NCBI GenBank assembly: GCA_038040445.1
Contig: JBBPIG010000001.1
Span: 216,402 to 280,401 of the forward strand
Origin: Acidobacteriota bacterium
Lineage (GTDB): Bacteria; Acidobacteriota; Blastocatellia; UBA7656
Length of the DNA stretch: 64,000 nucleotides
Reading direction: 5' to 3'
Shown here: positions 19,352 to 41,455 of the stretch, piece after piece
How the letters are laid out: each line of letters begins with the position of its first letter
How positions within the stretch are numbered: the first letter of the stretch is position 1
The notes under the pieces: generated by a model
Seen by the model: the letters and a program-made list of their open reading frames with translations, nothing else
The model's database searches: none
What the model was told of the DNA's origin: nothing
Translations under genes and position numbers: made by a program

Positions 19352-19410
19352 AAAGCGCTCATGCGGATCGCCCCCATCGTGACGCCGCCTCCCCCGGAGT
19401 GCTAGAGCCA

Positions 19411-20559
19411 ATGCAAGAAAGAACGCAGATGAAAGTTCCGATGCTGGATCTGAGTGTCCAGCACCAGACGATCGCGGAAGAGATTCAAGCGGCCGTAGCA
19501 GGCGTCCTGAACAGCCAGCAGTTTATTCTTGGGCCTGAGGTGCGCGAGCTTGAGCGGGAGCTGGCGCCTTACTGCCAGTGCGCAGAAGCTGTAGGATGCG
19601 CGTCGGGTTCGGATGCCCTTCTACTCGCTCTTATGGCTTGCGGAGTGGGACCCGGCGATGAGGTCATAACAACTCCCTTTAGTTTTTTTGCTACCGTAGG
19701 GTCAATCGTGCGGTTGGGAGCCAGGGCAGTCTTCGTCGATATCGATGTCGCGACTTTCAACATCGATGCAAATCTTATCGAGGGCGCAATGACCGAGCGA
19801 ACGAAAGCCATCATGCCCGTGCATGTCTTCGGGCAATGCGCAGAGATGGACCGCATCAATGAACTTGCCAGGCCCGGCAAGATCGCGGTTATTGAAGATG
19901 CCGCTCAGGCTATCGGCGCCGAGTATGGCGAAAGAAGGGCTGGCAGCCTGGGGCTAGTCGGGTGCTTCAGCTTTTACCCGTCGAAGAATCTGGGCGGGGC
20001 AGGAGACGGTGGTTTACTTACGACTAATGATCTTGAGCTGGCCGAGAGTCTGAGAACCCTGAGGGCGCATGGGGCCAAGAGAAAGTATCATCACGATCGG
20101 GTGGGGATAAACAGCAGGCTGGACTCGTTGCAGGCCGCAATTCTGCGGGTCAAGCTTCGCTATTTGGATCAGTGGGCAAAGACTCGTAGAGCAAATGCGC
20201 AAAGATATCGAGGGCTGTTTGACTCAGCCGGATTGGTTTCGAGCGGTGCGGTGCGATTGCCCGGCGAGTCCGCATCGGCACGGCACGTATACAATCAATT
20301 CGTTATTCGGGCCCGCGAACGGGACAAGCTAAGAGCGTACCTTGCGGAGCGCGGCGTAGGGACGGAGATTTACTACCCGGTGCCACTTCATATGCAGGCC
20401 TGCTTCGAAGACTTGGGTTATCGGGTGGGAGATTTCCCCGAATCAGAGAGGGCAGCCGAAGAGGCGCTGGCGATCCCGATATATCCAGAGCTCGGCGAAA
20501 CCGCGCAGGGTTACGTGGTCGAGACAATAGGCTCGTTCTATCGGCAGGGTATCGCTTGA
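19411..20559 (+). CDS. DegT/DnrJ/EryC1/StrS-family sugar aminotransferase
   Basis: A ~382-residue PLP-dependent aminotransferase. It has the N-terminal [12 protein letters not shown], the cofactor region [13 protein letters not shown], the [11 protein letters not shown] motif contacting the PLP ring nitrogen, and the Schiff-base lysine in [14 protein letters not shown]. The closest recognised subgroup is WbpE/WlbC-like enzymes, which add an amino group to UDP-3-keto sugars. These build amino sugars for capsule, O-antigen or exopolysaccharide. The ATG at 19411 has GGAG 12 bases upstream; an ATG at 19429 (MKVPML) is an alternative. It leads an apparent operon with UXS and UGD. Confidence 0.87.
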
Positions 20560-20578
20560 TGTGCACAGGTGAACTGAA

Positions 20579-21559
20579 ATGCGAGTGCTGATAACAGGCG
20601 GAGCAGGATTCTTAGGCTCACATCTGGTCGACCGCCTAATCGCGGACGGACACGACGTGATCGTGTTCGACAACCTGCTTACCGGCCGCGTAGAGAACGT
20701 CGAGCATCATCTGGGCAACGAACGCTTCAAGTTTGTCAAACAGGATGTGACCGAGTATTTGCACGTCGCCGGCGAACTCGATGCGGTTGTGCATTTCGCA
20801 TCCCCTGCGAGCCCGATCGACTATTTGCAGTTACCGATTCAGACGCTGAAGGTTGGCAGTCTTGGAACGCACAAAGCATTGGGCCTGGCGAAGGCAAAGC
20901 GCGCGCGGTTCCTGTTGGCGTCGACGTCGGAGGTCTACGGAGATCCGCAGGTGCATCCGCAACCGGAAGAGTACTGGGGACACGTGAATCCCGTCGGGCC
21001 ACGAGGCGTGTACGATGAAGCAAAGCGCTTCGGCGAAGCGATCACGATGGCTTATCATCGCTATCACGGCGTTGACACCCGCATCGTCAGAATATTCAAC
21101 ACGTACGGCACCAGGATGAGGCCTAATGACGGACGAGTGGTTTCAAACTTTGTGGTTCAGGCGCTCAAAGGCGAACCTCTCACCGTCTACGGAGACGGGG
21201 ACCAGACGCGCTCCTTCTGCTACGTTAGCGATTTGATCGAAGGTATATTGCGCTTGTTGATGAGTTCCGATGCGCGAGGATCGAAGTCAGCCGGCGGACG
21301 GCCGGGCGCAGACGACGATATTCACTTGCCGACAAACATCGGCAACCCCGGTGAGTTCACCGTGATCGAGCTTGCTCGCATGGTGATCAGGTTGACCGGG
21401 AGCAAGAGTATCATCGAGCACAGACCCTTGCCGGTGGACGATCCGCGCGTGAGGCAGCCCGACATCAGCCGCGCTGTCAGACTTCTAGGATGGGAGCCGA
21501 AGGTAAGCTTGGAAGAGGGGCTCAAGAATACGATCGCATTCTTTGCCAGCATTCTGTAG
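20579..21559 (+). CDS. UDP-glucuronate decarboxylase (UDP-xylose synthase)
   Basis: A 326-residue extended SDR. It shows [14 protein letters not shown] at the N-terminus (NAD binding), [27 protein letters not shown], the catalytic YDEAKR, and [20 protein letters not shown]. The combination of the SEVYGDP, YWGHVNP and [11 protein letters not shown] motifs is specific for UDP-glucuronic acid decarboxylases, which convert UDP-glucuronate to UDP-xylose through a 4-keto intermediate. The substrate is made by the next gene product, UDP-glucose dehydrogenase. It starts 19 bases after the aminotransferase and nearly touches the next gene, so the three form one operon. Confidence 0.9.
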
Positions 21560-21587
21560 CGTGCTGATCGAGAGCTGGAGAAAGTCA

Positions 21588-22889
21588 ATGCACATAGCAG
21601 TCATCGGCACCGGCTACGTTGGCCTTGTCACAGGTGCGTGCTTTGCCGACTTTGGTATGAGGGTCACCTGTGTGGACAAGGACCGGGACAAGATTCACTC
21701 GATTAAAGAGGGCAAGCTGCCGATCTACGAGCCGGGACTTGATGCGCTGGTCTCGAAGAATGTCCGGGAGGGAAGGCTTGACTTCAGCACCGATGTGAAA
21801 GAAACAGTCGAGCAATCGCTGGTCGTGTTCCTTGCGGTCGGCACGCCGCCCAGCGGAGACGGGTCGGCCGATATGAGTCAGATCGATGAAGTGGCTTACG
21901 AGATAGCAAAGTCACTGAACGGCTATAAAGTAATCGTGACCAAGAGTACGGTACCGGTCGGCGCGGCTTCTCGCATCAAGAAGATCATCGAGGAGAACAG
22001 GGCGGCGCCAGGCCGGTTCTCGGTTGCGGCGAACCCTGAATTCTTGAGAGAAGGGGCAGCCATTAGCGACTTCATGCGGCCGGACAGGGTAGTGATTGGT
22101 TGCAGAGATGAAGAAGCGGTGGCGATACTGAAAGATATCTACCAGCCGCTGTACCTGCTCGAGACCCCGTTCGTTATCACGACGCCGGAGTCTGCGGAAA
22201 TGATCAAGTACGCTTCAAATGCATTTCTGGCGACGAAGGTTTCATTCATCAATGAGATATCGAGGCTGTGTGAATTGCTCGGCGCCGATGTCCACGATGT
22301 GGCTAAGGGAATGGGGATGGATGTCCGAATCGGGTCTAAGTTCCTCCATCCCGGACCTGGTTTCGGCGGAAGTTGCTTCCCGAAGGATGCAAAGGCGCTC
22401 GTGGCGCTAGGACGCAGCGTGAACTATGACGTCCGAATCGTCGATGCTGCGCTGCGCGTTAACGAGTCTCAGAAGAACTCAATCATCGATCGCATCAGGC
22501 GTCTATTGCCGCAACTGGGCGGCAAAACGATCGCAATACTAGGATTGGCTTTCAAGCCCGAGACCGACGACATCAGAGAAGCGCCGTCAATCAAGATAAT
22601 CGAGGACCTGCTCGAGGCGGGAGCCAAGGTTCGAGCTTACGATCCGGCGGCTATGGAGTCCGCGCGCCGGCTGCTAACCGACGTCGAGTATTGCGAGGAT
22701 GAGTACGAAGCCGCTCGCGGTAGCGATGGCCTGGTCGTTGTTACCGAGTGGAACCAATTTCGGCGGCTCGATATGGATCGACTGAAGCAACTGATGCGCG
22801 AGCCAAACATCATAGATCTTAGAAACCTCTACGAGCCTGTGGCGATGCGTTTGGCGGGGTTCAACTATCTGGCGATGGGGCGCAACTGA
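21588..22889 (+). CDS. ugd: UDP-glucose 6-dehydrogenase
   Basis: A ~433-residue UDP-glucose/GDP-mannose dehydrogenase. Visible motifs are GTGYVGLVTGACFADFG (NAD binding), AVGTPPSGDGSADMSQI, the EFLREG segment, and the catalytic cysteine in GPGFGGSCFPKDAKAL. The third domain has LGLAFKPETDDIREAPS. It oxidises UDP-glucose twice to UDP-glucuronate, feeding the decarboxylase encoded just upstream. The ATG at 21588 has GGAG at 21577-21580 and begins with the typical MHIAVIGTGYVG; an in-frame ATG at 21543 overlaps the decarboxylase gene and is less likely. Confidence 0.94.
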   Translation: MHIAVIGTGYVGLVTGACFADFGMRVTCVDKDRDKIHSIKEGKLPIYEPGLDALVSKNVREGRLDFSTDVKETVEQSLVVFLAVGTPPSGDGSADMSQIDEVAYEIAKSLNGYKVIVTKSTVPVGAASRIKKIIEENRAAPGRFSVAANPEFLREGAAISDFMRPDRVVIGCRDEEAVAILKDIYQPLYLLETPFVITTPESAEMIKYASNAFLATKVSFINEISRLCELLGADVHDVAKGMGMDVRIGSKFLHPGPGFGGSCFPKDAKALVALGRSVNYDVRIVDAALRVNESQKNSIIDRIRRLLPQLGGKTIAILGLAFKPETDDIREAPSIKIIEDLLEAGAKVRAYDPAAMESARRLLTDVEYCEDEYEAARGSDGLVVVTEWNQFRRLDMDRLKQLMREPNIIDLRNLYEPVAMRLAGFNYLAMGRN

Positions 22890-26323: not shown

Positions 26324-26361
26324 TACACAAGAATAGGTATCAAAATCGGCTTTCTTGTGTA
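26324..26361. repeat. Perfect 10-bp inverted repeat
   Basis: TACACAAGAA (26324-26333) and TTCTTGTGTA (26352-26361) are separated by 18 bases. It has no T-tract and may be a hairpin at the end of the converging transcripts of this region. Confidence 0.45.
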
Positions 26362-26430
26362 AAGCCAAGGACACCATCGAATTTCGGGGCAGAAATCCCC
26401 GCTGGCCTCATAAATCGACTCGGAAGGTGC

Positions 26431-26490: not shown

Positions 26491-27675
26491 CTAGGAGATG
26501 CCGTACTGATCCCCTTCGAGCTGCACGACTCGACGCTGCAACGCGATGCGGTCGAGAGCGAGGCTCGCTTGACTGGCCAGGGCGACCAATTCCCCAAGTC
26601 CCGTCAGTTCAGCGTTGCCGGGATAGTTGTCGCCGTAGATTACGAAGGCCGGAGATTCATTGCAGCTTAACGGCAACACGAAGAAAGTAAGCTCGTGGCC
26701 GAAGCCTCCCACGCGACTGAGCAATTCCGAGAACCAATAGCTGTCCGGCTTAGCTCCGACAAACGGCTCGCCTGTCCTCACGACACGAGCAAGAACGCTG
26801 TCGCCTTCCAACGGAAGGCAAAGGTCGCGAACCAGTTCATCGGCGCTCTTGCCGTCCGCGCCCTGGTTGAGCCCGAACTGCCCGAGGCCATATAGCTTCG
26901 AGTCTTTGATCGCGAACAGAATGCCCCGCGCTGCAAGCTCGCTCGCATACCTCATCAGCAGCAAACTGATCTCAGCTTCAAACGAGTGCTGCTTCATCTC
27001 GGCAAGTAATGAGCACAAAAGACTCGATCGATCGTGATTCCCCCGCTTTGGCGCATCGTCATCGTGCCCCATCCGTGTCCCGAACGAGACTTGAGCGTCC
27101 CGACGGTTGCCGAGAGGCCGGGTTTCCCGCCCGCCATTCAAACTGAACCAGCCAGAGTCGTCGTGTAGCGCTTCCGTCTCTCGTTCTTTGTATGATTTAT
27201 CTTGTTCGTGCGCTGCGTGCAACAGAGCCTCGCCGACATCGAGGCCTTCGGCGAGCCGTATGCCCTCTACCGATTGCGGAAGCGTCGCCTCACCCAGCGC
27301 TATGCTGAAGCGTCCCTTCTCTATTCTCACGAGCTTTGCTATGACGCGTTGAGTGTGGCGACGGGCAGCGGCGGCCAGTCCGTTCCGTGTGAGAATCCCG
27401 CTTTCCACCAACCGTTCGAGGCCGGCATCCTTGTGGTCGCCGCCGGCGGCCAGCGTTCTCAAAGCATCCGCTCCAAGCAACCCTGCAAGCGCCAGACTAT
27501 CCCTGAGAGTTTCTCCGGGCCGGACTGAGGAATGTGTTATTCGCCCTCCCTCTACTATTATCTTGCCCTCCGACCCCCCGCCTTCAAGAGACACCATTCC
27601 CGTTTTTCTGCTCAGCGACAGTATCTGCAAGATGTCTGTTAGAGCGAAGTCGCTCAAGTCCCCAGTTAGCTGCAT
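26491..27675 (-). CDS. DUF4388 (PATAN-type) protein with a C-terminal GAF-like region
   Basis: A 394-residue protein, last gene of the chemosensory operon. It starts directly with a DUF4388 domain (LTGDLSDFALTDILQILSLS, then TGMVSLEGGGSEGKIIVEGG and ITHSSV), residues 1-~150. A polar linker follows (about 155-225). The C-terminal ~170 residues look GAF-like (LLMRYASELAARGILFAIKD, LPLSCNESPAFVIYGDN, VALASQASLALDRIALQ). DUF4388 proteins occur beside response regulators in Myxococcota, Acidobacteria and cyanobacteria and are proposed adaptors for output. Nine bases separate it from the upstream response regulator, so the two are co-translated. A direct protein-protein role with that CheY is inferred. 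Confidence 0.8.
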   Translation of the reverse strand: MQLTGDLSDFALTDILQILSLSRKTGMVSLEGGGSEGKIIVEGGRITHSSVRPGETLRDSLALAGLLGADALRTLAAGGDHKDAGLERLVESGILTRNGLAAAARRHTQRVIAKLVRIEKGRFSIALGEATLPQSVEGIRLAEGLDVGEALLHAAHEQDKSYKERETEALHDDSGWFSLNGGRETRPLGNRRDAQVSFGTRMGHDDDAPKRGNHDRSSLLCSLLAEMKQHSFEAEISLLLMRYASELAARGILFAIKDSKLYGLGQFGLNQGADGKSADELVRDLCLPLEGDSVLARVVRTGEPFVGAKPDSYWFSELLSRVGGFGHELTFFVLPLSCNESPAFVIYGDNYPGNAELTGLGELVALASQASLALDRIALQRRVVQLEGDQYGIS

Positions 27676-27683
27676 AGCCGTGC

Positions 27684-28070
27684 TCAGTGCTCACCCAGGA
27701 AATCCTTCACTAACTCCTTCAGCCTCGCCATCGATACGGGCTTGGAGAGATAACCGCTGGCGCCCAGGCTCATCCCCAGTTGGACATCCTCATCAGCGCC
27801 CTTGGTGCTGATTATGATAATCGGCAGCTCGCGATGCTTTGGCTCGGCACGCACCGTTCGAATGAATTCCAGGCCGTCCATTCTTGGCATTCGAATATCA
27901 GTCAGAACCAGGTCGAAGTTCCGGTTCCTGACTTTGTTCAATGCATCCTCGCCGTCGAAGGCTTCGGTTATGTTTGCCTGAGTAATGCCCTCGACTCTTG
28001 TCAGGGTCATACAGAGGAGCTGTCGCATGGTCGCCGAATCATCGACCACCAGCAGAGACTTGTCAGCCAT
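27684..28070 (-). CDS. Single-domain response regulator (CheY-like)
   Basis: A 128-residue receiver domain with no output domain. It has the acidic pocket in VVDDSATMRQ (Asp10, Asp11), the phosphoacceptor Asp58 in LVLTDIRMPRMDG, the Thr/Ser in IISTKGADE and the Lys in YLSKPV. It is one of two free receivers in the operon and probably carries phosphate from CheA. Its start overlaps the end of the GAF gene by eight bases. The target is unknown; no FliM gene lies in the window. The neighbouring DUF4388 protein is a candidate partner. Confidence 0.9.
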   Translation of the reverse strand: MADKSLLVVDDSATMRQLLCMTLTRVEGITQANITEAFDGEDALNKVRNRNFDLVLTDIRMPRMDGLEFIRTVRAEPKHRELPIIIISTKGADEDVQLGMSLGASGYLSKPVSMARLKELVKDFLGEH

Positions 28071-28896
28071 TGGCGCCTCCTTGTGGCACTCGCAACAAAC
28101 TCATGAATCCTTCAATTGTGCGAAGCTTTCTATCGGCCATCGAGTAGAGCCTCGAGCTGATGAGCGCACTCGCGGCGTGGCCGGCTAGCAACTCCATTAG
28201 CTGATGATCCAGCTCGGTAAGTCCCCTCTTGTGAGACAGCAGTTGGTAAATCGTTATCAAACCGACGACGCGCTCCTTTATCTTCAGCGGTACGCAGGCG
28301 CGAGGCCCGTCCCCTTCGCCTTCGCTGAAATACGGCTCTCCCGTAAGAGCGACGACACCTTCGATGCCTTCACCGAGAGTAACCTGCGCCTTGTCCGGCC
28401 GGCCGCCGGTATCGCCCTCGTAGCCCGCCCGCACGAGTTCATGAGTCTCATCATCGACAACAAAGAGACCGAAATCCTCAGAGCCGATCATGTTGAGCAG
28501 GATTTCCTTGATGCACTCCAGAACCTCGGCCGAGTCCAGCGTCGAGTGCAGTCGATGGCTGGCAACGTACAGATTCGCGAGGCTCTCGTTCTGCTCTTCC
28601 ACCTGAACGTATCTTTGCGCGAAGTCTTTGTTCTCGGCTTCGACCTGTTGAAACCTGCGATCGAGGAATTCGAGCTTTTGCGCCATCTGGCCGTTTTCGA
28701 GTCTCAATCGCTCGACTTCGTTCATCAGCGCGTCCGACGAGTTCATCTGGTCCGCCTCCAACTGGACCACGCGGTAGCGGAGTCGCTCATTCTCACACAT
28801 TAATTCTTCGGTGAATGCCCTTCCCTTTCTGAGCATGTCCACCAGCTCTTCGCTCTTGTTGAAGAGGTTCAAGATCTCTGCGGGCTCTTGTGCCAT
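28063..28896 (-). CDS. Coiled-coil and GAF domain protein of the chemosensory operon
   Basis: A 277-residue soluble protein. Residues ~1-115 form a long predicted coiled coil, rich in Glu, Leu, Gln and Arg (LRYRVVQLEADQMNSSDALM region, then QMAQKLEFLDRRFQQVEAEN). Residues ~120-265 form a GAF domain: LYVASHRLHSTLDSAEVLEC, LNMIGSEDFGLFVVDD, CVPLKIKERVVGLITIY and ELLAGHAASALISSRLY. GAF domains bind small molecules or serve as dimer interfaces. The product may sense a cytoplasmic signal and bind the array proteins or the response regulator. Similar GAF/coiled-coil proteins accompany some non-flagellar chemosensory clusters, but I cannot name one. Confidence 0.78.
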   Translation of the reverse strand: MAQEPAEILNLFNKSEELVDMLRKGRAFTEELMCENERLRYRVVQLEADQMNSSDALMNEVERLRLENGQMAQKLEFLDRRFQQVEAENKDFAQRYVQVEEQNESLANLYVASHRLHSTLDSAEVLECIKEILLNMIGSEDFGLFVVDDETHELVRAGYEGDTGGRPDKAQVTLGEGIEGVVALTGEPYFSEGEGDGPRACVPLKIKERVVGLITIYQLLSHKRGLTELDHQLMELLAGHAASALISSRLYSMADRKLRTIEGFMSLLRVPQGGANG

Positions 28897-28908
28897 GTCA
28901 GCGCTCCC

Positions 28909-29373
28909 TCAATCCAAATCCTGAATTGTAATGTTGACTCGCACTTCACCGTAGGCGGTAGCTATTGGCGCAACCAGGGTCTCGAAGCATTGATCGTAGC
29001 TGACAAGATTCGCGCCCGTTATCACCGTCGGTGGGCTCATTCTGAGTCTGGTGCCGCCCTCGTTGATCTTCGATATGGCGCGACCGATCGCCATCGAAGC
29101 GAGCTCCGCTATTGAGCTGCGAACCAGCGGCGTCATTCCCGGCGACGGTTCTCCGAGCATGTGTCCGGCGAGCTGCACCGCCGTGAACAGATCCATATCG
29201 AAGATGACGCGTCCTTGCGCTTCGCCGGCGAGTCCGATGATCGCCATGACCTCTCTGCCGGCCACCGGGCTTGGTTTCATAGAAATTGAAGGGACATCAA
29301 CCGTCGGCCCAATCAACTCCCGAAACACCACGGTGGTCGAGTCGACGAATATTTTTACGAAGTCTAGTCTCAT
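28909..29373 (-). CDS. cheX: CheX-like chemotaxis phosphatase family protein
   Basis: A 154-residue protein of the CheC/CheX/FliY phosphatase family: residues 1-155 cover the full CheX fold, with GREVMAIIGLAGEAQGRVIF, LAGHMLGEPSPG, SSIAELASMAIGRAISKI and the C-terminal VRVNITIQDLD. In CheX the active motif is E-x-x-N. Here the matching positions read ELAS, so the Glu is kept but the Asn is Ser. It might still dephosphorylate a CheY, or have become a binding protein. The start overlaps the downstream end of the response regulator by four bases. Confidence 0.8.
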   Translation of the reverse strand: MRLDFVKIFVDSTTVVFRELIGPTVDVPSISMKPSPVAGREVMAIIGLAGEAQGRVIFDMDLFTAVQLAGHMLGEPSPGMTPLVRSSIAELASMAIGRAISKINEGGTRLRMSPPTVITGANLVSYDQCFETLVAPIATAYGEVRVNITIQDLD

Positions 29374-29801
29374 ATCACTCCCCTGGCACGATTGTCGGGA
29401 GCCGAGGACAGGACGTTCTCAATCGCCTTTCTTAGCTCTTCGGTAGTGACGGGCTTGGGGAGGAACCACTTTGCGCCTGCAGACATTGCCTCGGCCACCT
29501 TTTCTGTGTAGCTTACCGAGCTGATCATTATGACCCTTGCTTTCGGGTCTTCGTCGCATATTCTCTTAACGGTTTCGACGCCCTCCAGGCCCGGCATGAC
29601 GATGTCCATCAGCACAATATCCGGTCTGAGGCGGCTGTATTCTCTTATGGCCTCGGTGCCGTTGGCGGCTTCACTGGCGATGACGTTCTCGAAGGAATCC
29701 ATCATTCGCCTCAGGTGAAATCGCATAAACGCCGAATCGTCCACGATCAAACACGTGAGGGGCGGTTTCGCGATTGCTGTTTCTTCGTCACTTACATGCA
29801 T
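29370..29801 (-). CDS. Single-domain response regulator
   Basis: A 143-residue receiver with the acidic pair in CLIVDDSAFMR (Asp21, Asp22), the phosphoacceptor Asp66 in IVLMDIVMPGLEG, Ser in IMISSVSY and Lys in FLPKPVT. The N-terminal ~14 residues (MHVSDEETAIAKPP) are a short leader. The ATG at 29801 overlaps the end of cheB by 14 bases; an in-frame start at 29918 lies deep inside cheB and is rejected. It sits between cheB and cheX, so it is the likely substrate of CheX. Confidence 0.88.
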   Translation of the reverse strand: MHVSDEETAIAKPPLTCLIVDDSAFMRFHLRRMMDSFENVIASEAANGTEAIREYSRLRPDIVLMDIVMPGLEGVETVKRICDEDPKARVIMISSVSYTEKVAEAMSAGAKWFLPKPVTTEELRKAIENVLSSAPDNRARGVI

Positions 29802-30876
29802 AGACTTTCTCCACCTCGACAAGCTGTCCCGCCTGACTCGTGAGATATGACGCCATCTCGGCGAGCGGCACGATCTTGTTTGCGTAACCTCTTTCCACTG
29901 CGATTCTAGGCATCCCATAGACCGCGCAGCTTTCCTTATCCTGCGCGATAGTCTGTCCCCCGGCTTGCTTGATCTCTCCCAGTCCCAGCGCTCCGTCGCT
30001 GCCCATTCCTGTCATTATGATTCCTGTAGCCATTGGCCCATACTCCGCTGCAACAGACCGGAACAAGACGTCAACGGATGGCTTGTGGCCGTTCACCTGA
30101 GCGCCTCCCTCCAGCAACACCTGGCATCCGGCCGGCGTTTTCCGGACTTTCATATGCATATTGCCTGGCGCAATCAACGCCTTTCCGGGGAGAGCCAGAT
30201 CGCCCGATTCCGCTTCTTTCACCTCCAGGTCGCAAATCTCGTTGAGCCAGTGAGCGAGCATCGCAGTGAAGCTCTCCGGCATGTGCTGCACGATCACGAT
30301 GCCCGCGTCGAAGTCTGCCGGGATTCGCGGCAATAAGTATCGCAAAGCGTGCGGCCCGCCCGACGAAGCGCCTATCGCAACGATCCTTCCGGCTCCCCTG
30401 CCCCGTCCTTCAACCCGAGGCTTTTTCTTGACCAGTGGTCCGGGCAAAGAGCCGCCCAGCGCCGCTACGTTCGTTCGCGCGGCGGCCTTGATCTTCGACA
30501 CAAGCTCCTCTGCCATCTCCGGCAGCCGGGCCGTGCCTGAAGGCTTGCAGACGAAGTCCACTGCTCCCTTCTCGAGCGCCTGCATAGTCAGAGCTGCCCC
30601 CCGCGTGGTCAGCGAGCTGAGCATAATCACAGGAGTGCGATGCTTTGAAACGAGTTCCCCGAGCGCGGTCAGTCCGTCCATTCGCGGCATATCCACATCC
30701 AGCGTCACCACGTCCGGCTTCAGTTGTTCAACCTTGGTTAACGCGAAGCAGCCGTCAATCGCAGTCGCGATCACCTCGATCTCAGGATCTCCCTCCAATA
30801 GCTTCGAGATGAGCTTGCGCATCAAGGCGGAGTCGTCTACTACCAACACGCGAATCTTTTTTCGCTCAGACGGCAT
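29788..30876 (-). CDS. cheB: Chemotaxis protein-glutamate methylesterase CheB
   Basis: A 362-residue protein with an N-terminal receiver (Asp60 in VVTLDVDMPRMDG) and a C-terminal methylesterase/glutamine deamidase domain with the catalytic Ser in IGASSGGPHAL, His in VQHMPESFT and Asp in MGSDGALGL. CheB removes methyl groups from receptor glutamates and resets the signalling state; it opposes CheR, encoded two genes upstream. Length and domain order are standard. Its start overlaps the end of cheA by 11 bases, indicating coupled translation. Confidence 0.95.
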   Translation of the reverse strand: MPSERKKIRVLVVDDSALMRKLISKLLEGDPEIEVIATAIDGCFALTKVEQLKPDVVTLDVDMPRMDGLTALGELVSKHRTPVIMLSSLTTRGAALTMQALEKGAVDFVCKPSGTARLPEMAEELVSKIKAAARTNVAALGGSLPGPLVKKKPRVEGRGRGAGRIVAIGASSGGPHALRYLLPRIPADFDAGIVIVQHMPESFTAMLAHWLNEICDLEVKEAESGDLALPGKALIAPGNMHMKVRKTPAGCQVLLEGGAQVNGHKPSVDVLFRSVAAEYGPMATGIIMTGMGSDGALGLGEIKQAGGQTIAQDKESCAVYGMPRIAVERGYANKIVPLAEMASYLTSQAGQLVEVEKVYACK

Positions 30877-32623
30877 AAGCCTCCCTGCTGTTCCCTTTCC
30901 CTCGTTCGTACTTCACTGCCTTGCGGAAGACCATCTCCGCGTCCATTATCAGCACAACTCGTCCATCACCCAGCACTGAGGCGCCAGACAGCGCTTCGTT
31001 CTGCACCCAGTGGCTGTCGAGCGGCTTTATCATCAGTTCCTGCTCGCCTATCAGTTCGTCCGCCACAACGCCGTACCTCTTGTCAGCGGTTGCCAGGACG
31101 ACTATAAAGAATTGCTCTGCTTCGCTTCTAAGAGCGGCGCCGCTGCCGCCTTTGCGCCTGTCAAACGAGAGCACAACGCCTGGCCGAACCATCGATACGA
31201 AGCGATCGCGCAGTCTATAGTTTTCGACTCCGTCCAGATAAACAATGTCAGAGCTTTCTGCTCGCGCTATCTCGCTGACCGAGAGCAGCGGCAACGCGAA
31301 GAGCTGCCCGGCAGCCTTGAATAGCAACGCCTTTATGATCGCCAGTGTGAGCGGCATCCGAAGAGTGAAACACGTGCCGGCGCCAGCCTCACTCCTTACG
31401 GTCACGCTCCCGCGTAACTGCTCGATGGCCGACTTCACGGCAGCGGTCCCAATGCCTCGTCCGGACAATCGAGTGACACTTTTGGCCGTGGACACCCCTT
31501 CGAGGAAGATCAACTCCATTGCATCTTCGTCGGAAAGCCGGGCGGCATCCTGGCTTGTTATCGCTCCTGCTTCGATCGCCCTCGCTCTGACGATGGCCGG
31601 ATCGATACCGGCGCCGTCGTCGCTGACTTCGATGATGATGTAGTTCCCTTCATGGTAGGCGCGCATCCCGATGCGACCGGCCGCCGGCTTACCGGCATTT
31701 CGCCGAGCGGCCGTCGTTTCAAGCCCGTGATCGACCGCATTGCGTAGGAGATGTAACAACGGCTCGTACAGCAGATCCACCAACGCGCGATCAAGCTCCG
31801 TCTCGCCCCCGCTTATCTGAAGCTCGACTTCCTTTCCGCGTTCAGCCGCTAGCTCGCGCATAGGTCTCGCGAATCTGCGGAATACGTGGTCGATGGTAAC
31901 CATTCGCATCTTCAGTACGCTCTTTTGCAAATCGGCAATCAGTTTGCCCATGTGTGAGCTGGCGCCGCTGAACCGGCTAACAATTTCGTTTCGAGGAAGC
32001 GCCAGTTCGAGTTCAGGACGGAGCTGACCGATGACTGAACGCGCGATCACCATCTCACCGGCAAGGTTCAACAGGGTGTCTATTTTCGCCGCCTCAACGC
32101 GGACGTAGACGCGGCGATTCCTGGTCGCGGCCTGGCTCTCGACGCGAATCGAAGCTTCTGACCGGTGCCGTGGTTCGACCTGTTGATGATCATCTGGCTG
32201 CGTCGAAGGAAACTCCCCACTTGTCTGAATCGCTCCGAGCGCTTCAACCATCTTGTTCGCAGTTTCAGCCGGGATATCGCCCACTTCACTGCCGTCAATT
32301 GCGGCCTTCACCGCATCGAGGCTATTGAGGATCGCATCCACCGAGCGACGATCAAACGCAATCTTTCCGCTGAGTACCGCGTCGAACACGTCTTCGATCT
32401 TGTGGGCTACTTGTGTCACGCCTTCGAGATCTATGCAGGCCGAATCGCCCTTCAGCGTGTGCGCCCCTCTTCGTAGCCGCGTCATCGCTTCGGCGTCGTC
32501 ACCGGCCGACTCCAGAGTAAGCAGATCGTGCCCCATCTCTTCCAGAATCTGAAGCGACTGGTCGCGAAACACCCCGAGCAACTGATCGAGTTCTGCTTTG
32601 GTCAGATCATCCATCTCGAACAC
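30866..32623 (-). CDS. cheA: Chemotaxis histidine kinase CheA
   Basis: A 585-residue CheA. Residues 1-~110 are the histidine phosphotransfer domain, with the phosphorylated His55 in HTLKGDSACIDL. A ~60-residue linker follows and there is no P2 (CheY-binding) domain. The dimerisation helices contain LAGEMVIARSVIGQL, the ATP-binding domain has LLRNAVDHGLE (N box), VSDDGAGIDP (G1) and LSGRGIGTAAVK (G2), and a CheW-like regulatory domain ends the protein (LTLAIIKALLFKAAGQLF). It autophosphorylates and passes phosphate to CheB and the receivers. Lack of P2 is common in chemosensory systems of non-flagellar type. Confidence 0.94.
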   Translation of the reverse strand: MFEMDDLTKAELDQLLGVFRDQSLQILEEMGHDLLTLESAGDDAEAMTRLRRGAHTLKGDSACIDLEGVTQVAHKIEDVFDAVLSGKIAFDRRSVDAILNSLDAVKAAIDGSEVGDIPAETANKMVEALGAIQTSGEFPSTQPDDHQQVEPRHRSEASIRVESQAATRNRRVYVRVEAAKIDTLLNLAGEMVIARSVIGQLRPELELALPRNEIVSRFSGASSHMGKLIADLQKSVLKMRMVTIDHVFRRFARPMRELAAERGKEVELQISGGETELDRALVDLLYEPLLHLLRNAVDHGLETTAARRNAGKPAAGRIGMRAYHEGNYIIIEVSDDGAGIDPAIVRARAIEAGAITSQDAARLSDEDAMELIFLEGVSTAKSVTRLSGRGIGTAAVKSAIEQLRGSVTVRSEAGAGTCFTLRMPLTLAIIKALLFKAAGQLFALPLLSVSEIARAESSDIVYLDGVENYRLRDRFVSMVRPGVVLSFDRRKGGSGAALRSEAEQFFIVVLATADKRYGVVADELIGEQELMIKPLDSHWVQNEALSGASVLGDGRVVLIMDAEMVFRKAVKYERGKGNSREAYAV

Positions 32624-32635
32624 ATTCCTATCGCC

Positions 32636-33535
32636 TTATCCTTCGAGCCTGTAGGCGATGCCCTTGTTGCGATGCACCATTGCGAATCTGGTTGATAAGC
32701 CCTGAAGGCTTTCCGCGTGCCCCAGGAACAGGAAACCGCCCGGCACCAGGCAATTCGCAAATCGATTGACCAGCCTGCGCTGCTCTTCGGCGTCGAAGTA
32801 AATCATCACATTTCGGCAAAAGACTATGTCGAGTCCGCGAAGCCCGTTGTCGTTCTTCAGGTTGTGATAGTCGAATATCACGCGCTTCCTGACTGCCTCG
32901 CTCATCACGTAGTGCCCGTTCTCCTGCCGAAAGTATTTCGCAACAGAGTCCGGATCGACTCCCCTCAACTGGTCGGCGCGATACAAGCCGCACTGCGCCC
33001 GCTCGAGCGCGGTGAATGACAGGTCCGACGCAAAGACGCGAATGGCCCACGAGTCTCGATCGGGCAATGTTTCCAGCAGCGTCATTACTGCGCTATAGGG
33101 CTCCTGTCCTGTCGAGCACCCAGCGCTCCACACGCGCAGAAGGCGGGTCGCGCTCTTCTCTTTCTTCGAGACAATCTCGGGCAGCACTACCTCTCGCAAT
33201 AAGTCGAACTGCGGCTGGTTTCTAAAGAACGAGGTCTCGCAGATCATCAGTGAGTCCAGAAGCGCGAGCAGCTCCTGCGACCTGCCCTGCGGCGCGGTGA
33301 TCATGCAGTAGTATTCATACCCGCTCGTAACCCCGAGTTGATCCATTCGGCGTCTTAACCTGGATTCCAGAAACGATCGTTTCTCGACACCGAGGCTGAC
33401 ACCACACTGCTCGTAGATAAGGTCCCTGAACAGCCTGAACTCGCTGTCAGACAAAATGTTCAGGCTGAGCGGCCCCGAGTCGAACTGTTGCATGTACCCC
33501 GGTGTCATAACGTGCGATGAATTGCTCATACTCAA
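32636..33535 (-). CDS. cheR: Chemotaxis protein methyltransferase CheR
   Basis: A 299-residue MCP glutamate O-methyltransferase. It has the CheR N-terminal helices (LFRDLIYEQCGVSLG), the SAM-binding motif VWSAGCSTGQEPYSAVM, and GLDIVFCRNVMIYFDAEEQRR, which is diagnostic of CheR. The receptor target is presumably the MCP encoded upstream. It has no TPR tail. The stop of cheW and this start overlap in an ATGA, and 12 bases separate the end from cheA. Confidence 0.95.
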   Translation of the reverse strand: MSMSNSSHVMTPGYMQQFDSGPLSLNILSDSEFRLFRDLIYEQCGVSLGVEKRSFLESRLRRRMDQLGVTSGYEYYCMITAPQGRSQELLALLDSLMICETSFFRNQPQFDLLREVVLPEIVSKKEKSATRLLRVWSAGCSTGQEPYSAVMTLLETLPDRDSWAIRVFASDLSFTALERAQCGLYRADQLRGVDPDSVAKYFRQENGHYVMSEAVRKRVIFDYHNLKNDNGLRGLDIVFCRNVMIYFDAEEQRRLVNRFANCLVPGGFLFLGHAESLQGLSTRFAMVHRNKGIAYRLEG

Positions 33536-34113
33536 AACGATGACGCGGTTGCGAGCTGCTCTCTTCTACGGGACAAGAATTCAATTACTACGTCCAGTTC
33601 GGCAACGATCTCATCGGATAGGGCCTTTCTCAGATCAATCAGCGTGATGAATCTATCGTTGATCTTGACCACGCCCTCGACGTAGCCGGCGCCGATCTCC
33701 GAAATAAGGTCGGGCACGGGCTCAAGCATTTCGTCGCTAACCCGTATCACCTCGGATGCGCCGTCGACTATTAATCCCGCCGTCCGGCCGTCGAGCTTCG
33801 CGATGATTATCCGCTGGTCCGTGGGTATTGGCGTTTCGAGAGCGCGAAGCCGCTTTCTGAAGTCAAGTACAGGCACGAGGTTCCCTCTGAGATTCATTAC
33901 ACCTTCGACATAACGCTCGGTCTCGGGGACTGGCGTTATCTCGCGCATCAGCACAACCTCGCTGGTGAGCATGATGTCAACGGCGAATTCTTCTCCGCCG
34001 ACTTTGAACACCACCAATTGTCGTCTTGCTGGCAAAGCCGCCTCCGTGCTCGCTTCCTGACCGCCTCGCTCAGTCGCCGTGTGGATAGCGTGCGATTGTG
34101 GTCCCGTTTCCAC
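33532..34113 (-). CDS. cheW: Chemotaxis coupling protein CheW
   Basis: A 193-residue protein. Residues ~30-170 form a CheW-like domain: [63 protein letters not shown] and [16 protein letters not shown]. CheW links CheA to receptor tips in the array. The first ~28 residues are a polar leader that overlaps the 3' end of the MCP gene by 44 bases in another frame; no better start codon lies downstream, so this unusually long overlap looks real. Confidence 0.92.
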
Positions 34114-36838
34114 GGTTCCCTGACGAGCCGGGCAGATCGTACGAAAACGGGTGAATATAGTCGTCCTTCACTTTGAACTGCGAGATTGCCTTGTTCAGCC
34201 GGTCTGCGAGCCCCACCATTCCCTCGATCGTTTGCGCGGTTTGGTGAGCGCCGGCGGATGTTTCAAGCGTAATGCTCGATATGGTCTGCATCGCTCCGGC
34301 CACATTGCTCGTCACCCGCGCCTGTTCTTCCGATGCCGCTGAGATTTCCTCGATCAGCTCCGATGACTGGCGCACGGCCTCTGAGATTTCTCGAAGCGCG
34401 GTGCTTGCCTCGCAGGCAAGGTAGCTCCCGCCCCGGACCTCTTTCATCCCGGCCTCCATGGCAGTGAGCGCTTCCGAGGTCTCGTTTTGAATCGACTTGA
34501 TGAGGTTCCCTACATCGCGGGTGGCGCGCGCCGATCTTTCTGCCAGTTTTCTGATCTCGTCCGCCACAACGCTAAACCCCAGGCCGGCCTCTCCAGCATG
34601 TGCCGCTTCGATTGCGGCATTCAGCGCGAGCAGATTGGTTTGGGCGGCGATCTCGTCGATCAAGTCGATGATCTCCGATATCTCGGAACTGCGAATGCCG
34701 AGCAGCCGCATCTTCTCCGCCGTTTGCTGGACGGCGGAATCGATCCTCGACATTGCTTCCGATGTGTCGCGAACGGATTTGTCTCCGTGTTCGGCCTTAT
34801 CGAGTGCGCGGCGCGCCGCGTCAGCCGAAGCATCTGCATTCTTCGAAACCTGATTCATCGACGCCGCCATCTCTTCCACTGCGCTTGATGTATTGGTTAT
34901 TTCGTCCGCTTGTCGTTGCGACCCGACCGCGATTTGCTCTGCCGCGGCTAGTATCTCCGTCGCGCTCGACGAGACAGAGAGCCCGATCTGTTTGACTTCG
35001 GTAAGCATAAGGCTGAAATCGTCGAGCATTTTGTTTACAGACTGGATGACTCTTCCGAGGGTGTTGTCGGTTTCACCGCCGCGTTTTGTCAGATCACCTT
35101 CGGACACCGAAGAGACCATAGTCAGAAACTCTTTGAGGTTGCGCTCGAGGCTTTCTTCGGCCAGTCGTCTTGCGGTTACGTCACGTTTGATTCCGCGAAA
35201 GCCGTCGGGCTTGCCCGAAGCATCGCGCTTGAGAGAAACGGAAGACTCAACGACTCTCTTCGTTCCGTCTTTCGCGACTACCTCATAGGAGAAGCCGCGG
35301 GTGGCTTCCCCGGTTCGAGCTACCCTGCTGAACTCTTGATAGACCTGCTGGGCAACGTCGGGATCCATGAACTGGCGGTTGTTCATTCCCATCAACTCTT
35401 CGGCCTCATACCCGAGCATCTTGCATACTGGGCCATTGAAAAAAGTGAAGTTGCCTCTGAGATCAACTTCGAAGTATCCGTCTTCGATGCTTTCGAGGAT
35501 GGTCCGATACTTTTCCTCGCTTTGTCTCAGCGCTTCTTCAGCGCGCCTGCGATTGAGCGCGCTGGCGATATGCTGCGAGACGAAGGTCAAGACATCCTTC
35601 TCGGTCTCACCAAACCTAACGCTCTCTGTGTAACTCTGGACCGCGAGAACACCTAGCGTTTCGTCCCCTGCTTTGAGGGGAATGCCCAGCCAGGCGACGG
35701 GAAGCGTTCCGATGACCTCGATTTCACCAGTCCCTATCATCGCCTGCAAGTTTTCGCGCGGAGCCAGTAGCGCCGCCCCGGTGCGCAACACGTGTTCGGT
35801 CATCCCCCTCCTGAGCTTTCGCGGTTGAGGCGGGTCGTCGACTTCATCAACGTAATAGGGAAAGCTCACCATATGAGCTGCTTCATCGTAAAGCGCAATG
35901 AAAAAGTTTCCGGCATACATTAGCTCCCCAACGATACGGTGGACTGCCTTGAAGAAAGCCTGCATATCATCTGTCGAGCTGGTCATCTCAGCAACACGGT
36001 AGAGCGCCGACTGGAGCAATTCTGCGCGTTTGCGCTCCGTAATGTCCGTGTGAATCTCAATGTGGCCTGTCACTCGACCGCTCTCATCTTTTATCGCGTC
36101 GGAACGCAAGGCCACAGGTATGATCCTGCCGCTTCGAGCGCGCATCTCGATCTCTCCCGACCAGGATGCGCCGTTACTGACGGCTTCAGAGACCTCTCGC
36201 GCAACGCCGGGATCGACGTAGAGGAGTGCTTTGCTGGCCGCGGCATCCAGCTCTTGGACGTTGTAGCCGAAAAGCTCGGTGAACTTCTTGTTGTAGTAGG
36301 TGCCCTCGGTGGTGGAGTCGGCGACAGCAATTGCGTCCCCCGAGCCTTCGACCGCCTTAATGATCGCGAGAAGCGATTGTTTTTGCCCCGCCTCAGAGCG
36401 CGCTGTCTCGCTCATTCGGTCCATCATCGCATTAAAGCTTCGCGCCAGCTCTTCGAACACCGGACTGGTAAAAGCATCTACGCGGACATCGAGGTTTCCA
36501 GCCGATGCTTCTCTAGTTGCGTGACTGAACTTCTCCAGACTGCTTGTGATGCGCCTCGCGACTACGAGACCGGCTACAAACACCGTCACAAGTGAAAGGA
36601 GAGCCGCCGTCGCAGCATTGACCGTCGAGGCCCTTGATAGTAGAGCACTCGGTTCTGCGGCCGAGCCTTCGAAACTCAGATAAGTAGACACGTATGCGGC
36701 CGCGCCGAACAGAAACGCCAGCGTCACCGCTAAGCCCCCTAGCTTGACGTCCAGGGCCTTCAGACCAACCTTGCCGAGTGTCGAGCGAGCATCAAGACCA
36801 TGGGGAGGCGCACTGTGCCGTTTTTGATTTGAATCCAT
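34070..36838 (-). CDS. Methyl-accepting chemotaxis protein with HAMP, PAS and GAF sensors
   Basis: A 922-residue receptor, first gene of the chemosensory operon. Two membrane helices (about 29-54 and 73-97) flank only ~20 residues outside the membrane, so ligand sensing must be cytoplasmic. A HAMP domain (~94-147) is followed by PAS (~152-275), GAF (~280-435), a second PAS (~445-565) and a HAMP-like linker. The signalling hairpin spans ~640-880 with the tip [20 protein letters not shown]. No C-terminal CheR-docking pentapeptide is evident. It should control CheA through the CheW encoded next to it, in response to an internal or redox signal bound by the PAS/GAF domains. Confidence 0.92.
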
Positions 36839-37200
36839 TTGCGTTACTCTTCTTTTTTTTCGCCCGATTTGAGGCGGGAAAGAGAAGCATGTTTCGAGTT
36901 AAGCCGCTAAACGCACACGCGCTGCGTGCCGGCCAAACCGAGATCGTCTCGAAGAGAATGCGAAAGGGGCAACGTGCGAGGCGAACACTAACTCAAAGAG
37001 GAGCCTCGACCAACTTTGGGTGAAATTTCTTGAAGGGGCAACGGTGGGAGCAACAAATCGAGATGCGCGTCAGATGGCCTTTATTATGCCTATTGCGGGG
37101 ACGCAGTCAATACAATTCTATCGGGACTTTGTGCCTGCTTACCTGTATGGATGACTACCTCCGGATTTCCCAGCCCTTCCCGCGTCAGTGTGACGAGTAG
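36839..37200. other. Intergenic region upstream of the chemosensory operon
   Basis: About 360 bases between the MCP start and the stop of the next metallo-hydrolase gene, both on the minus strand. It holds the candidate promoter at 37083-37110 and otherwise no reading frame with coding character. The resulting leader of about 240 bases may carry regulation, but no conserved motif was recognised. Confidence 0.5.
37083..37110 (-). promoter_or_regulatory. Candidate promoter of the chemosensory operon
   Basis: On the minus strand TTGACT (37110-37105) and CATAAT (37088-37083) are spaced 16 bases apart, each one base from consensus. It is about 245 bases upstream of the MCP start codon, the only good match in the gap. 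Confidence 0.5.
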
Positions 37201-38725: not shown

Positions 38726-40168
38726 TCATACTGGCCACGCTGTGGCCCGCGCTGTACCTTCTGTCACCGCGTCGTCCATCTCTTCTTCTTCCTCGCTTCG
38801 CAGCCGGCCGGCATAACCATATTGGCGTAGGCGGCGATAGAGCGTGCGCCGATCTATTCCGAGCACTCTTGAAGTTTTGATTTGATGACCGCCCATCTTC
38901 TCGAGCACTCGGATGATGTAGCGGCGTTCAACCTCGGCGAGCGAGACGCCGTCAAGCGTTGCTTCATGCACTATGTCGCGCTCAGGCGCAGTGACGCTGA
39001 CGGGCAAGTCCTCGGGCAACAGAATCTCGCCGCTTCCCATCGTGAGCGCGTGCTCGACCGCGTTCTCCAGTTCTCTAACGTTGCCAGGCCATTCGTGAGT
39101 CATCAGAACTCGCATCGCCTCATTCGCAAACCGGCTGGTAGGCTCGCTGTGCTGAAGCGCGAACTTCTGCAAGAAGTGGTGGAGGAGAAGCGGAATGTCT
39201 TCACGGCGGTCCTTCAAGTCTGGGAGTCGCACTGGCACGACGTTGAGGCGGTAAAATAGATCCTGACGAAACTCGCCGCGTTTGACTACTTCTTCAAGCT
39301 CCTCGTTGCTGGCAGACACGAGTCTAATATCAATCTGGATGTTCTCACGCCCGCCAACCCTCCTTACGACACGCTCCTGCAAGACTCGCAAAAGTTTCAC
39401 TTGAAGACTCGGCGAAAGCGTGTTGATCTCATCCAGGAATACGGTGCCGCCCTGCGCTTCTTCAATCAAACCACGTCTGGTCTCGTGTGCTCCGGTGAAG
39501 GCGCCTTTTTGATGGCCGAACAATTCAGACTCAAGCAGGGTGTCGGGGATCGCGGAGCAGTTTATGGGCATGAACGGAGCGTCCCGGCGATCCGAGTTGT
39601 AGTGAATCGCACGCGCGACCAGCTCCTTTCCGGTTCCAGTGGACCCGGTTATCAAAGCGGAAGCGTCTCGACGGGCAGCAATTCGCTTTATCACTTCGAA
39701 AAGCTGCTGCATAGGTTTGCTGCGGCCAACGATGTTGGAGAAGTTGTATCGCCCCCGCACCTCGGCTCGAAGCTCTTTCACTTCGCGACGGAGGCTGCGC
39801 CGCTCCAAAGCCTTCTCGACTGTGATGCCTAGTTCGTCGAGCTGAAAGGGCTTGCCGATATAATCTTCGGCGCCGAGCTTCATGGCTTCGACTGCCGAGG
39901 AGATTGAGCTGAAGGCAGTCATGATGACGACGGCCACTTCGGGCCAATCGACCCGAATTCTCGCCAGTAATTCGAGTCCGCTCATCCCGGGCAGCTTGAT
40001 GTCCGTTATGACGAGCGCGTAATCCTGTTCCTGAAGGCGAGCTACGGCGTGTTCGCCATCCTGAGCCGTATCCACGGTGTACGCTTTTTCCGAAAAGAAC
40101 GATGTGAGAAGCTCGCACATTGGAGCTTCATCTTCGACAATTAAGATACGCTGATTAATGTCCCTCAT
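38726..40168 (-). CDS. NtrC-type sigma-54 response regulator
   Basis: A 480-residue regulator. The receiver domain (1-~120) has the phosphoacceptor Asp56 in ALVITDIKLPG. The AAA+ domain (~146-375) has Walker A GSTGTGKELVA, the sigma-54 contact motif GAFTGA, Walker B GGTVFLDEIN and the arginine-rich EFRQDLFYRLNV. The C-terminal Fis-type helix-turn-helix has HQIKTSRVLGIDRRTLYRRL. It activates sigma-54 promoters after phosphorylation by the histidine kinase encoded immediately upstream (22 bases away). The acidic/Ala-rich tail of about 25 residues (RSEEEEEMDDA) is unusual. Confidence 0.94.
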   Translation of the reverse strand: MRDINQRILIVEDEAPMCELLTSFFSEKAYTVDTAQDGEHAVARLQEQDYALVITDIKLPGMSGLELLARIRVDWPEVAVVIMTAFSSISSAVEAMKLGAEDYIGKPFQLDELGITVEKALERRSLRREVKELRAEVRGRYNFSNIVGRSKPMQQLFEVIKRIAARRDASALITGSTGTGKELVARAIHYNSDRRDAPFMPINCSAIPDTLLESELFGHQKGAFTGAHETRRGLIEEAQGGTVFLDEINTLSPSLQVKLLRVLQERVVRRVGGRENIQIDIRLVSASNEELEEVVKRGEFRQDLFYRLNVVPVRLPDLKDRREDIPLLLHHFLQKFALQHSEPTSRFANEAMRVLMTHEWPGNVRELENAVEHALTMGSGEILLPEDLPVSVTAPERDIVHEATLDGVSLAEVERRYIIRVLEKMGGHQIKTSRVLGIDRRTLYRRLRQYGYAGRLRSEEEEEMDDAVTEGTARATAWPV

Positions 40169-40190: not shown

Positions 40191-41315
40191 CTATGCCGGG
40201 CTACCAGGATTCACAGGCAAATAGATCACAAGCGAGATGCCTCGTTCCCCCGACCCGCTGAAAGCTACTCTCGCGCCCGCCGCGTTCAGTACCTCCTTTG
40301 CAAGCGATAGGCCGACACCTACAGTTGCTGCTTCACTCTGCGCGCCAAGGAAACAGCCAAGAGATTGTGAGAAGTCGTGCCCGACTCCGCCGGCCTCGGT
40401 TCCCGCCAACGCCACGGCCAGAAATCCGGGCCTCTCAGGGGCTTCATCAACTACCACCTCAAGCCTGCCTCCGGGTCCGACTTCCTGACCGGCGTTAAGC
40501 AAGAGGTTGAAGAACGCCTGCCTCAACTGCGGCGCTTCTCCATATACCAGCGGAGGGCTTATTCTGCAAGTGAGGCCAGCTTTCACCTTTGTCTTGTGTA
40601 GATAGTGCCCCACCAGGGTGAGCGCGTCCGACAGCAAGGTGTTGATCTCAATTGCGTCGGCCCGGCCTTGCGGAGGGTGCGCAAGATCGAGCGCTTGTCC
40701 GACCATTGATGCTATACGCCTGGTTTGATTAAGTATGGCCGAGAGTTCCTTGTAGTTTTGACCGTCCGGTTTCGTTCGCATCAGTAGGAACTCGGTGTAG
40801 CCCGATATGACGTTGAGGGGAGTGCCAATATCATGCGCAATTCCAGAGAGTATTTGACCCAAGCTAGCATACCGCTCTGCCTTCAGTAACTGTTGCTGTG
40901 CGCGGCGTTCACCGGTAACGTCGCGCAGCAATCTTATAAATCCACACGTGCCGCCGCGTTCGTCAAGTAGCGGCTCGATGGTCACGAACAGTATTCTCCC
41001 GGACAAGTTCACTTCACCGTCTAGTTTGACCACCGACCCTGTCGCTAGAACTTGCTCGTGTGGGCAAGTCGAATGTTCCCCATGAAAGGCTTGCTGGCAA
41101 CTAGAGCCCTTCAGTTCAGAAAACGACTTGGAGTATATGTCGCAAAGGTTCTTGTTCACCCACAGGATTTCACCGGTTGCCGAGTGGACGCTAATGCCCT
41201 CAGAGACTGCGTCAAGGACAGTGGTCAACAGATACTCCACCGGAGATCCGGGAGTGCCGTTCGCGGAAGTCGAGCCCATACGATCTACGGTTGAGTTGTC
41301 TATACCAGTTGGCAT
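40191..41315 (-). CDS. PAS-domain sensor histidine kinase with degenerate ATP-binding motifs
   Basis: A ~374-residue soluble kinase. A PAS domain covers about residues 25-150 (LDAVSEGISVHSATGEILWV). The dimerisation/phosphoacceptor helix has the H box GIAHDIGTPLNVISGYTEFL with the phosphorylatable His. The N box FFNLLLNAGQEV is present, but the G1 box, normally D-x-G-x-G, reads ALAGTEAGGVG without the Asp, and the G2 region is VGVGLSLAKEVLNAAG. So catalysis may be weak or altered. It is the cognate partner of the NtrC-type regulator 22 bases downstream. The ATG at 41315 is preferred; an in-frame GTG at 41450 lies next to a terminator. Confidence 0.8.
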   Translation of the reverse strand: MPTGIDNSTVDRMGSTSANGTPGSPVEYLLTTVLDAVSEGISVHSATGEILWVNKNLCDIYSKSFSELKGSSCQQAFHGEHSTCPHEQVLATGSVVKLDGEVNLSGRILFVTIEPLLDERGGTCGFIRLLRDVTGERRAQQQLLKAERYASLGQILSGIAHDIGTPLNVISGYTEFLLMRTKPDGQNYKELSAILNQTRRIASMVGQALDLAHPPQGRADAIEINTLLSDALTLVGHYLHKTKVKAGLTCRISPPLVYGEAPQLRQAFFNLLLNAGQEVGPGGRLEVVVDEAPERPGFLAVALAGTEAGGVGHDFSQSLGCFLGAQSEAATVGVGLSLAKEVLNAAGARVAFSGSGERGISLVIYLPVNPGSPA

Positions 41316-41455
41316 GCTTAGCCGGACGGATTCAAATACAGGTCTGCTTGTGAATCCCCAGAAAGTAAACCTATCGCGCTCTGTACAGTGCTCCAGATTG
41401 GGAAGTAAAAAGTATAGCACCGCTTTGCTGCAACGTGAGGTAGCCGCCACAAATC

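Follow-up and report, generated by a model that had tools for sequence, protein, structure and literature searches.

The window analysed here, a 64,000-nucleotide stretch of contig JBBPIG010000001.1 from an Acidobacteriota genome (assembly GCA_038040445.1), carries on its minus strand a ten-gene chemosensory operon (positions 26491–36838). Judged from sequence, the operon most plausibly encodes a chemosensory array with the type IV pilus machine as its output, in a non-hybrid system with a split PATAN output. The output is probably surface-crawling pili, and not swimming, because the genome has no match to FliM and because the last gene, encoding a protein with DUF4388 (which we take to be the Pfam name of the PATAN domain), resembles the cyanobacterial proteins that couple arrays to the pilus motor. 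The order mcp-cheW-cheR-cheA-cheB-RR-cheX-GAF-RR-DUF4388, proposed in a first-pass annotation of the window, holds: all ten open reading frames (ORFs) are present in the ORF list, each with the expected Pfam domains above cut-off. The features of the operon are as follows.

34070–36838, minus strand: MCP receptor, 922 residues, with two transmembrane-like stretches, HAMP, PAS, GAF, PAS and the MCP signalling domain (Pfam, topology)
33532–34113, minus strand: CheW adaptor, GTG start, 44-bp overlap with mcp (Pfam, junctions)
32636–33535, minus strand: CheR methyltransferase, TTG start (Pfam)
30866–32623, minus strand: CheA kinase, 585 residues, with Hpt, dimerisation, HATPase and CheW domains, no P2 match and no receiver (Pfam, tree)
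29788–30876, minus strand: CheB receiver-methylesterase (Pfam)
29370–29801, minus strand: RR_a, stand-alone receiver (Pfam, start placement, orthologue lengths)
28909–29373, minus strand: CheX-like protein, with ELAS in place of the catalytic ExxN (Pfam)
28063–28896, minus strand: GAFcc, a coiled-coil/GAF protein with a predicted 114-residue N-terminal helix, GAF and a C-terminal helix of about 40 residues (Pfam, AlphaFold, Foldseek)
27684–28070, minus strand: RR_b, stand-alone CheY-like receiver, a near-constant neighbour of GAFcc (Pfam, alignment)
26491–27675, minus strand: DUF4388 (PATAN-like) protein, with DUF4388 at residues 1–167, a linker and a GAF-like C-terminal domain at about 217–392 (Pfam, AlphaFold, Foldseek)
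37083–37110, minus strand: sigma-70-like promoter match (10 of 12) upstream of mcp
26346–26368, minus strand: terminator-like hairpin after the DUF4388 gene, the last of the operon

The genes are tightly coupled, as had been proposed, with overlaps at six of the nine junctions and gaps of 8, 12 and 12 bp at the other three. These figures take RR_a to start at the ATG at 29801, which is likelier than the ORF limit at 29918 and gives a protein of 143 residues (135–141 in orthologues). Promoter-like and hairpin matches are about equally common in the window and in shuffled sequence (6 versus 4.7, s.d. 2.0, and 13 versus 10.3, s.d. 3.0, respectively). NCBIfam gave no model over cut-off for the five of the ten operon proteins searched. 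Among the matches listed in the open-licence PMC literature, including the available passages of a Geobacter review (PMC8396549) and a Myxococcus survey (PMC3945109), no description of the operon or of the GAFcc-receiver pair was found.

Conservation was assessed by aligning the window proteins to regions of relatives with tblastn. The full ten-gene order is kept in all five unbroken members of the family (G002–G006, from four other genera), which is far beyond chance; two of them (G003 and G006) carry an additional MCP downstream of cheW. The congener G001 carries the operon on two contigs, the second of which ends right after cheX. In G002–G006, stretches of up to about 10 kb on each side of the operon yielded no flanking gene of the window except for a weak match to VWA in G004 and cross-matches of receivers to RR_b. 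Because the order is conserved while the flanks are not, the ten genes form one unit. A member of another family, G033, has the run cheR-cheA-cheB-RR_a-cheX-GAFcc-RR_b-cheW-mcp with no DUF4388 gene at that place, and a contig of G056 starts inside the same run. The cheA of G003 seems split (L060:12561–14119), with the Hpt start in a piece apart from the 470-residue main frame, perhaps through an assembly error.

The DUF4388 profile scores 73.9 bits on the last protein of the operon (Pfam cut-off 25). The domain that the first-pass annotation had named is present and, through its assumed equivalence to PATAN, is more than an anonymous one. AlphaFold modelling with five sequences (mean pLDDT 67.6, residues 168–230 of the linker below 50) gives the C-terminal domain a predicted GAF fold, its best Foldseek matches being GAF domains, and the protein is termed PATAN-GAF below. 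In the DUF4388 domain, four predicted helices (residues 57–116) lie between strands 45–52 and 122–127. The paper of Makarova that defined PATAN in 2006 reportedly names an alpha-helical insertion in its title, with which the modelled insertion, at this pLDDT, may agree. A PDB profile search with the protein returned a single match, to part of the domain, that was taken as chance (E-value 0.04). In the passages available from two studies, the pilus extension motor PilB is an interaction partner of PATAN-CheY receivers from Synechocystis chemosensory systems (PMC10519157, PMC9090330), PixE–PilB binding is called hypothesised in part of another (PMC7690835), and an excerpt of a fourth is more guarded on the interaction (PMC5812497). 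Two PATAN proteins are among the candidates in the accessible part of a Myxococcus pilus study (PMC11580455). The one paper listed for DUF4388 is about a Chloroflexi nitrite reductase. A plasmid search with the window's DUF4388 protein gave no matches, a receiver-PATAN query gave at least 5000, mostly on the receiver part among the matches listed, and a PATAN protein matched two Deinococcus gobiensis plasmids, one match being annotated as DUF4388.

DUF4388 and PilT occur together across genomes. Of 58 related genomes, the window's own included, 38 have both over cut-off, 16 neither, none PilT only and four DUF4388 only (Fisher 6e-11, a value inflated by kinship). A sample of 159 genomes of the phylum, again with its own (at least 90% complete, up to 12 candidates scored per genome, 18 genomes common to both samples), contains 115 with both, 15 with neither, 28 with PilT only and one, G010, with DUF4388 only (Fisher 5e-9, likewise kinship-inflated). 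PilT-negative genomes were called on the best E-value (all at 1e-16 or weaker than 1e-50), in agreement with the tallies of 38/58 and 143/159. The association is asymmetric: DUF4388 nearly requires PilT, and not the reverse. Comparisons inside families bear this out in part: in f6, G049 has both and nine of the other ten genomes have neither, G019 being the exception.

Elsewhere, a PilZ-DUF4388 protein on contig C8 of the window's genome stands one gene (recX) from a PilT-family ATPase (L054:6543–7256 and 7909–9495), which links DUF4388 physically to a pilus motor gene. G002 encodes a second, orphan protein with DUF4388 and the same C-terminal domain (L195:8997–10265), with no che gene found within the 20 kb examined. 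In three genomes, G033 (L185:7331–10828), G013 (L186:8229–12279) and G025 (L187:6014–9645), a weakly PATAN-like protein of 411–438 residues sits between two DUF4388 proteins; no Pfam family was found for this middle protein of G033 or for its 162-residue neighbour.

The first-pass annotation had suggested searching the genome for fliM and pilT. FliM, the sole flagellar marker searched, has no match in this genome, which is rated 100% complete; flagella are therefore unlikely as the output and were rejected as a candidate. PilT is encoded on contig C32 (TIGR01420, 497 bits versus a cut-off of 319), side by side with PilB (TIGR02538, 800 versus 675.65, with an MshE-type c-di-GMP motif) and PilC (T2SSF); more PilT-family matches over cut-off lie on contigs C8 and C3. 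The earlier statement that motility genes are absent thus stands for the neighbourhood and fails for the genome as a whole: no flagellar or pilus gene occurs among the 35 Pfam-scanned window proteins (RR_a and 34 of the 56 ORFs, 22 ORFs being unscanned), and none of the genome's ten T2SSE-family matches falls inside the window. CheW was found in 30 of the 58 related genomes, 24 of them without a FliM match. PilT is present in 22 of these 24; the other two, G041 and G052, are 78% and 73% complete.

Weak partial FliM matches were seen in frames of 520–600 residues in family f8 (G029:C8, G033:C85, G054:C937), and may not be flagellar, since G029 has no CheW match. The window's genome has another, small CheA-CheW locus on contig C15, and its only other MCP on contig C27 (L056:5468–8566) is a 1032-residue frame with the MCP signalling domain (251–409) followed by SBP_bac_5 (581–945), an order judged unusual. 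No link of either to the ten-gene operon was seen.

The part of the operon that is hardest to account for is the coiled-coil/GAF-receiver pair, which occurs in three phyla. The AlphaFold model of GAFcc (pLDDT 86.6, pTM 0.59) has the predicted 114-residue helix, the GAF domain and a second helix of about 40 residues. Relatives were collected by a pattern scan of named genomes, and the best 80 of 149, used for the counts below, belong to Acidobacteria, Nitrospirae, Geobacter-type and other Deltaproteobacteria, with a few unplaced. Neighbours were scored on all six frames because a simple longest-ORF picker misplaced some genes (for example, cheA-cheB in G005). A receiver directly follows GAFcc in 77 of the 78 loci with at least 500 bp downstream, and CheB directly precedes it in 62 of the 76 with room. 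Of the 80 loci, 60 encode a HEAT protein like that of six seed clusters, and five have CheX within 5 kb. A frequent arrangement is cheA, AAA_22 ATPase, cheW, receiver or MCP, cheW, HEAT protein, cheR, cheB, GAFcc, receiver. Among seven distant relatives (L065–L071, 35–38% identity), four (L065, L066, L068 and L071) have an adjacent receiver, and a DUF4388 gene stands next to the GAFcc relative in L067, where it has a DnaJ domain, and in L069. G005 has two more che clusters (L068:8235–12940 and L071:7399–10700) in which a GAFcc relative is next to CheD and CheA.

Among the close loci, L121 alone has no receiver after GAFcc. This 4,926-base contig of a Vicinamibacteria metagenome-assembled genome encodes CheB, a 525-residue protein and GAFcc. 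The 525-residue protein contains, in this order, DUF4388, a receiver (Pfam) and a C-terminal domain; its two ends are homologous to the window's DUF4388 protein (E-values of 3e-13 for the N-terminal part and 1e-20 for the C-terminal part). Its receiver retains the Asp and Lys, has an insert, and resembles RR_b weakly (about 31% over 71 residues). Read as a fusion, the L121 protein, which unites PATAN, receiver and GAF-like domain in a single chain, suggests that RR_b and the window's PATAN-GAF protein work together, probably on pili.

The scheme that these observations suggest is the following. The MCP receptor would sense a cytoplasmic ligand or redox state through its PAS and GAF domains and set CheA activity through CheW, with CheR and CheB tuning the array. 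The substrates of CheA would be CheB and the two receivers, RR_a and RR_b. Docked on the GAFcc rod, RR_b would control the PATAN-GAF protein, whose PATAN domain may in turn engage the extension motor of the pilus (PilB) or the regulators of its polarity. RR_a could act as a competitor or antagonist, in the manner of PilH towards PilG in Pseudomonas, and the CheX-like protein may bind a receiver, probably without hydrolysing its phosphate by the usual mechanism. Two proteins are candidates for the missing link, the PATAN-GAF protein, which would be expected at the pilus machine, and GAFcc, which is nearly always accompanied by a CheY-like receiver among close relatives in three phyla; both are open to direct binding tests. 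More tentatively, the GAFcc rod and its CheY-like neighbour might be an undescribed output or scaffold module shared by arrays of Acidobacteriota, Nitrospirota and Geobacter-type bacteria. Phosphorylated CheY would then set the state of a GAF-tipped, possibly nucleotide-binding coiled coil that exchangeable partners read (PATAN-GAF for pili, others elsewhere), much as FliM and CheZ serve flagellar arrays.

Several observations weigh against a pilus output. The flagellar search rests on a single marker, and no pil gene was found beside the operon. DUF4388 occurs within 5 kb of GAFcc in only five of the 80 loci, four of them from the window's family, so that another role is the usual one for GAFcc-receiver pairs; the pair of G020 (L065) has flagellar rod and FlhA-family genes as neighbours, and no receiver was detected beside the distant relatives L067, L069 and L070. 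L121 is a single fused case on a 4.9-kb contig. The equivalence of DUF4388 to PATAN is assumed, and the domain is not specific to chemosensing, since three more DUF4388 proteins of the genome have PilZ, DnaJ-TPR and TPR partners. The Fisher values take related genomes as independent, with no unrelated control family. Four distinct genomes (G010, G019, G022 and G038) have DUF4388 without PilT, a pattern shown by all three genomes of family f5, where the DUF4388 scores are weak, and 28 of the 143 PilT-bearing genomes of the phylum sample have no DUF4388. CheW also correlates with PilT, more weakly (27/11 versus 3/17).

Other outputs were weighed against the same data. Control of exopolysaccharide or matrix production, as by Dif in Myxococcus, with pili affected only indirectly, is unlikely: chemosensory control of exopolysaccharide is described in the part available of one study (PMC4671073), and sugar-nucleotide enzymes (DegT aminotransferase, epimerase, UDP-glucose dehydrogenase) are encoded at 19399–22889, but on the other strand, about 3.6 kb away and beyond three unrelated genes. 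An argument from this neighbourhood was rejected because the sugar-nucleotide genes are not conserved beside the operon; no flanking gene recurs there in the five family members save the VWA and RR_b cross-matches noted above. Action of the PATAN-GAF protein on a polarity switch (an MglA/MglB-type GTPase) instead of the pilus motor itself is similarly improbable; excerpts of one study place PATAN genes next to mglA or mglB in some genomes (PMC4316618), and the final output of such a switch would still be surface motility.

An output in gene expression or second messengers is the least likely of these. It is favoured by a receiver-sigma54 regulator (38726–40168) and a PAS histidine kinase (40191–41450) upstream of the operon, and by the EAL gene in the paralogous GAFcc cluster of G005 (L068), but the regulator and kinase are not conserved beside the operon, and neither the window nor G002–G006 has an output gene of either kind within the stretch from mcp to the DUF4388 gene. 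The first-pass annotation had offered gene expression, twitching or second messengers, rather than flagella. Its doubt about flagella is shared here, and of the three alternatives positive evidence was found for twitching alone, namely DUF4388/PATAN, the co-occurrence of DUF4388 with PilT and the L121 fusion.

Among the systems closest to the proposed pilus-steering array are the cyanobacterial Pix/Tax ones with PATAN-CheY receivers (PixG, PilG, TaxP2), which likewise have an MCP-CheW-CheA array, two receivers and a PATAN output; pilus-driven surface motility is a feature of Pix/Tax that the window operon may share. However, Pix/Tax systems join the receiver to PATAN in one protein, whereas in the window operon a GAF-like domain is the fusion partner of PATAN and the receiver has its own gene; the CheA of the window has a single Hpt without a receiver, and the operon also includes CheR, CheB, the CheX-like protein and GAFcc. 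Two stand-alone CheY-like proteins, and presumably a pilus output, are shared with Pil-Chp of Pseudomonas (TFP class), from which the operon differs in lacking a multi-Hpt hybrid CheA and in having no pil genes found beside it. The cheB-GAFcc-receiver core, usually after cheR, is common to the HEAT-repeat che clusters of Geobacter and Nitrospirota. Unlike the window operon, these typically contain an AAA_22 ATPase, several CheW and a HEAT protein, with no DUF4388 or CheX found within 5 kb, and their CheA falls in another part of the tree.

In type IV pilus systems of the TFP-class or Pix-like kind, CheA is a hybrid with several Hpt domains, a C-terminal receiver or both. The window CheA, with its single Hpt and no receiver (Pfam), lacks this feature, which is seen in L191; as previously suggested, it has no P2 match by Pfam. 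Three genomes (G005, G009 and G033) contain a further cluster of receiver protein, DUF4388 protein, receiver, cheW, MCP and CheA, the last with a receiver at its end, much like pixGHIJL. In G009, the first protein is a TPR-receiver and the CheA has two Hpt domains and a receiver. The CheA of these clusters lies apart from the window CheA in a tree of 42 rows built with no outside references or named classes. Because clusters with DUF4388 include this distant CheA, DUF4388 goes with two kinds of array in the class.

The CheX-like protein belongs to the CheX family, as named in the first-pass annotation, by Pfam (54.6 bits versus a cut-off of 27) and by a PDB profile match, and in this is like the CheX phosphatase of Thermotoga and Borrelia. 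It differs in the ExxN motif, which holds the catalytic pair of CheX. In an alignment with solved CheX (ELGN, EVGN), the eight CheX-like sequences compared have ELAS, EMAS, ELSS or ELTG: the Glu is kept, and the catalytic Asn is replaced by Ser in seven and by Gly in one (G033). A working CheX phosphatase is therefore doubted, and phosphatase activity has probably been lost.

The MCP receptor has membrane-like stretches at residues 33–51 and 75–93, separated by 23 residues, close to the 20 or so residues outside the membrane given before. Sensing inside the cell by PAS/GAF, as then proposed, is probable for this receptor, but is not a rule of the system, since the receptors of G002 and G004 carry dCache domains. 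Farther along the window, at 43482–47069, a 1195-residue protein unites a helix-turn-helix, TPR repeats and a sigma-54 activator domain.

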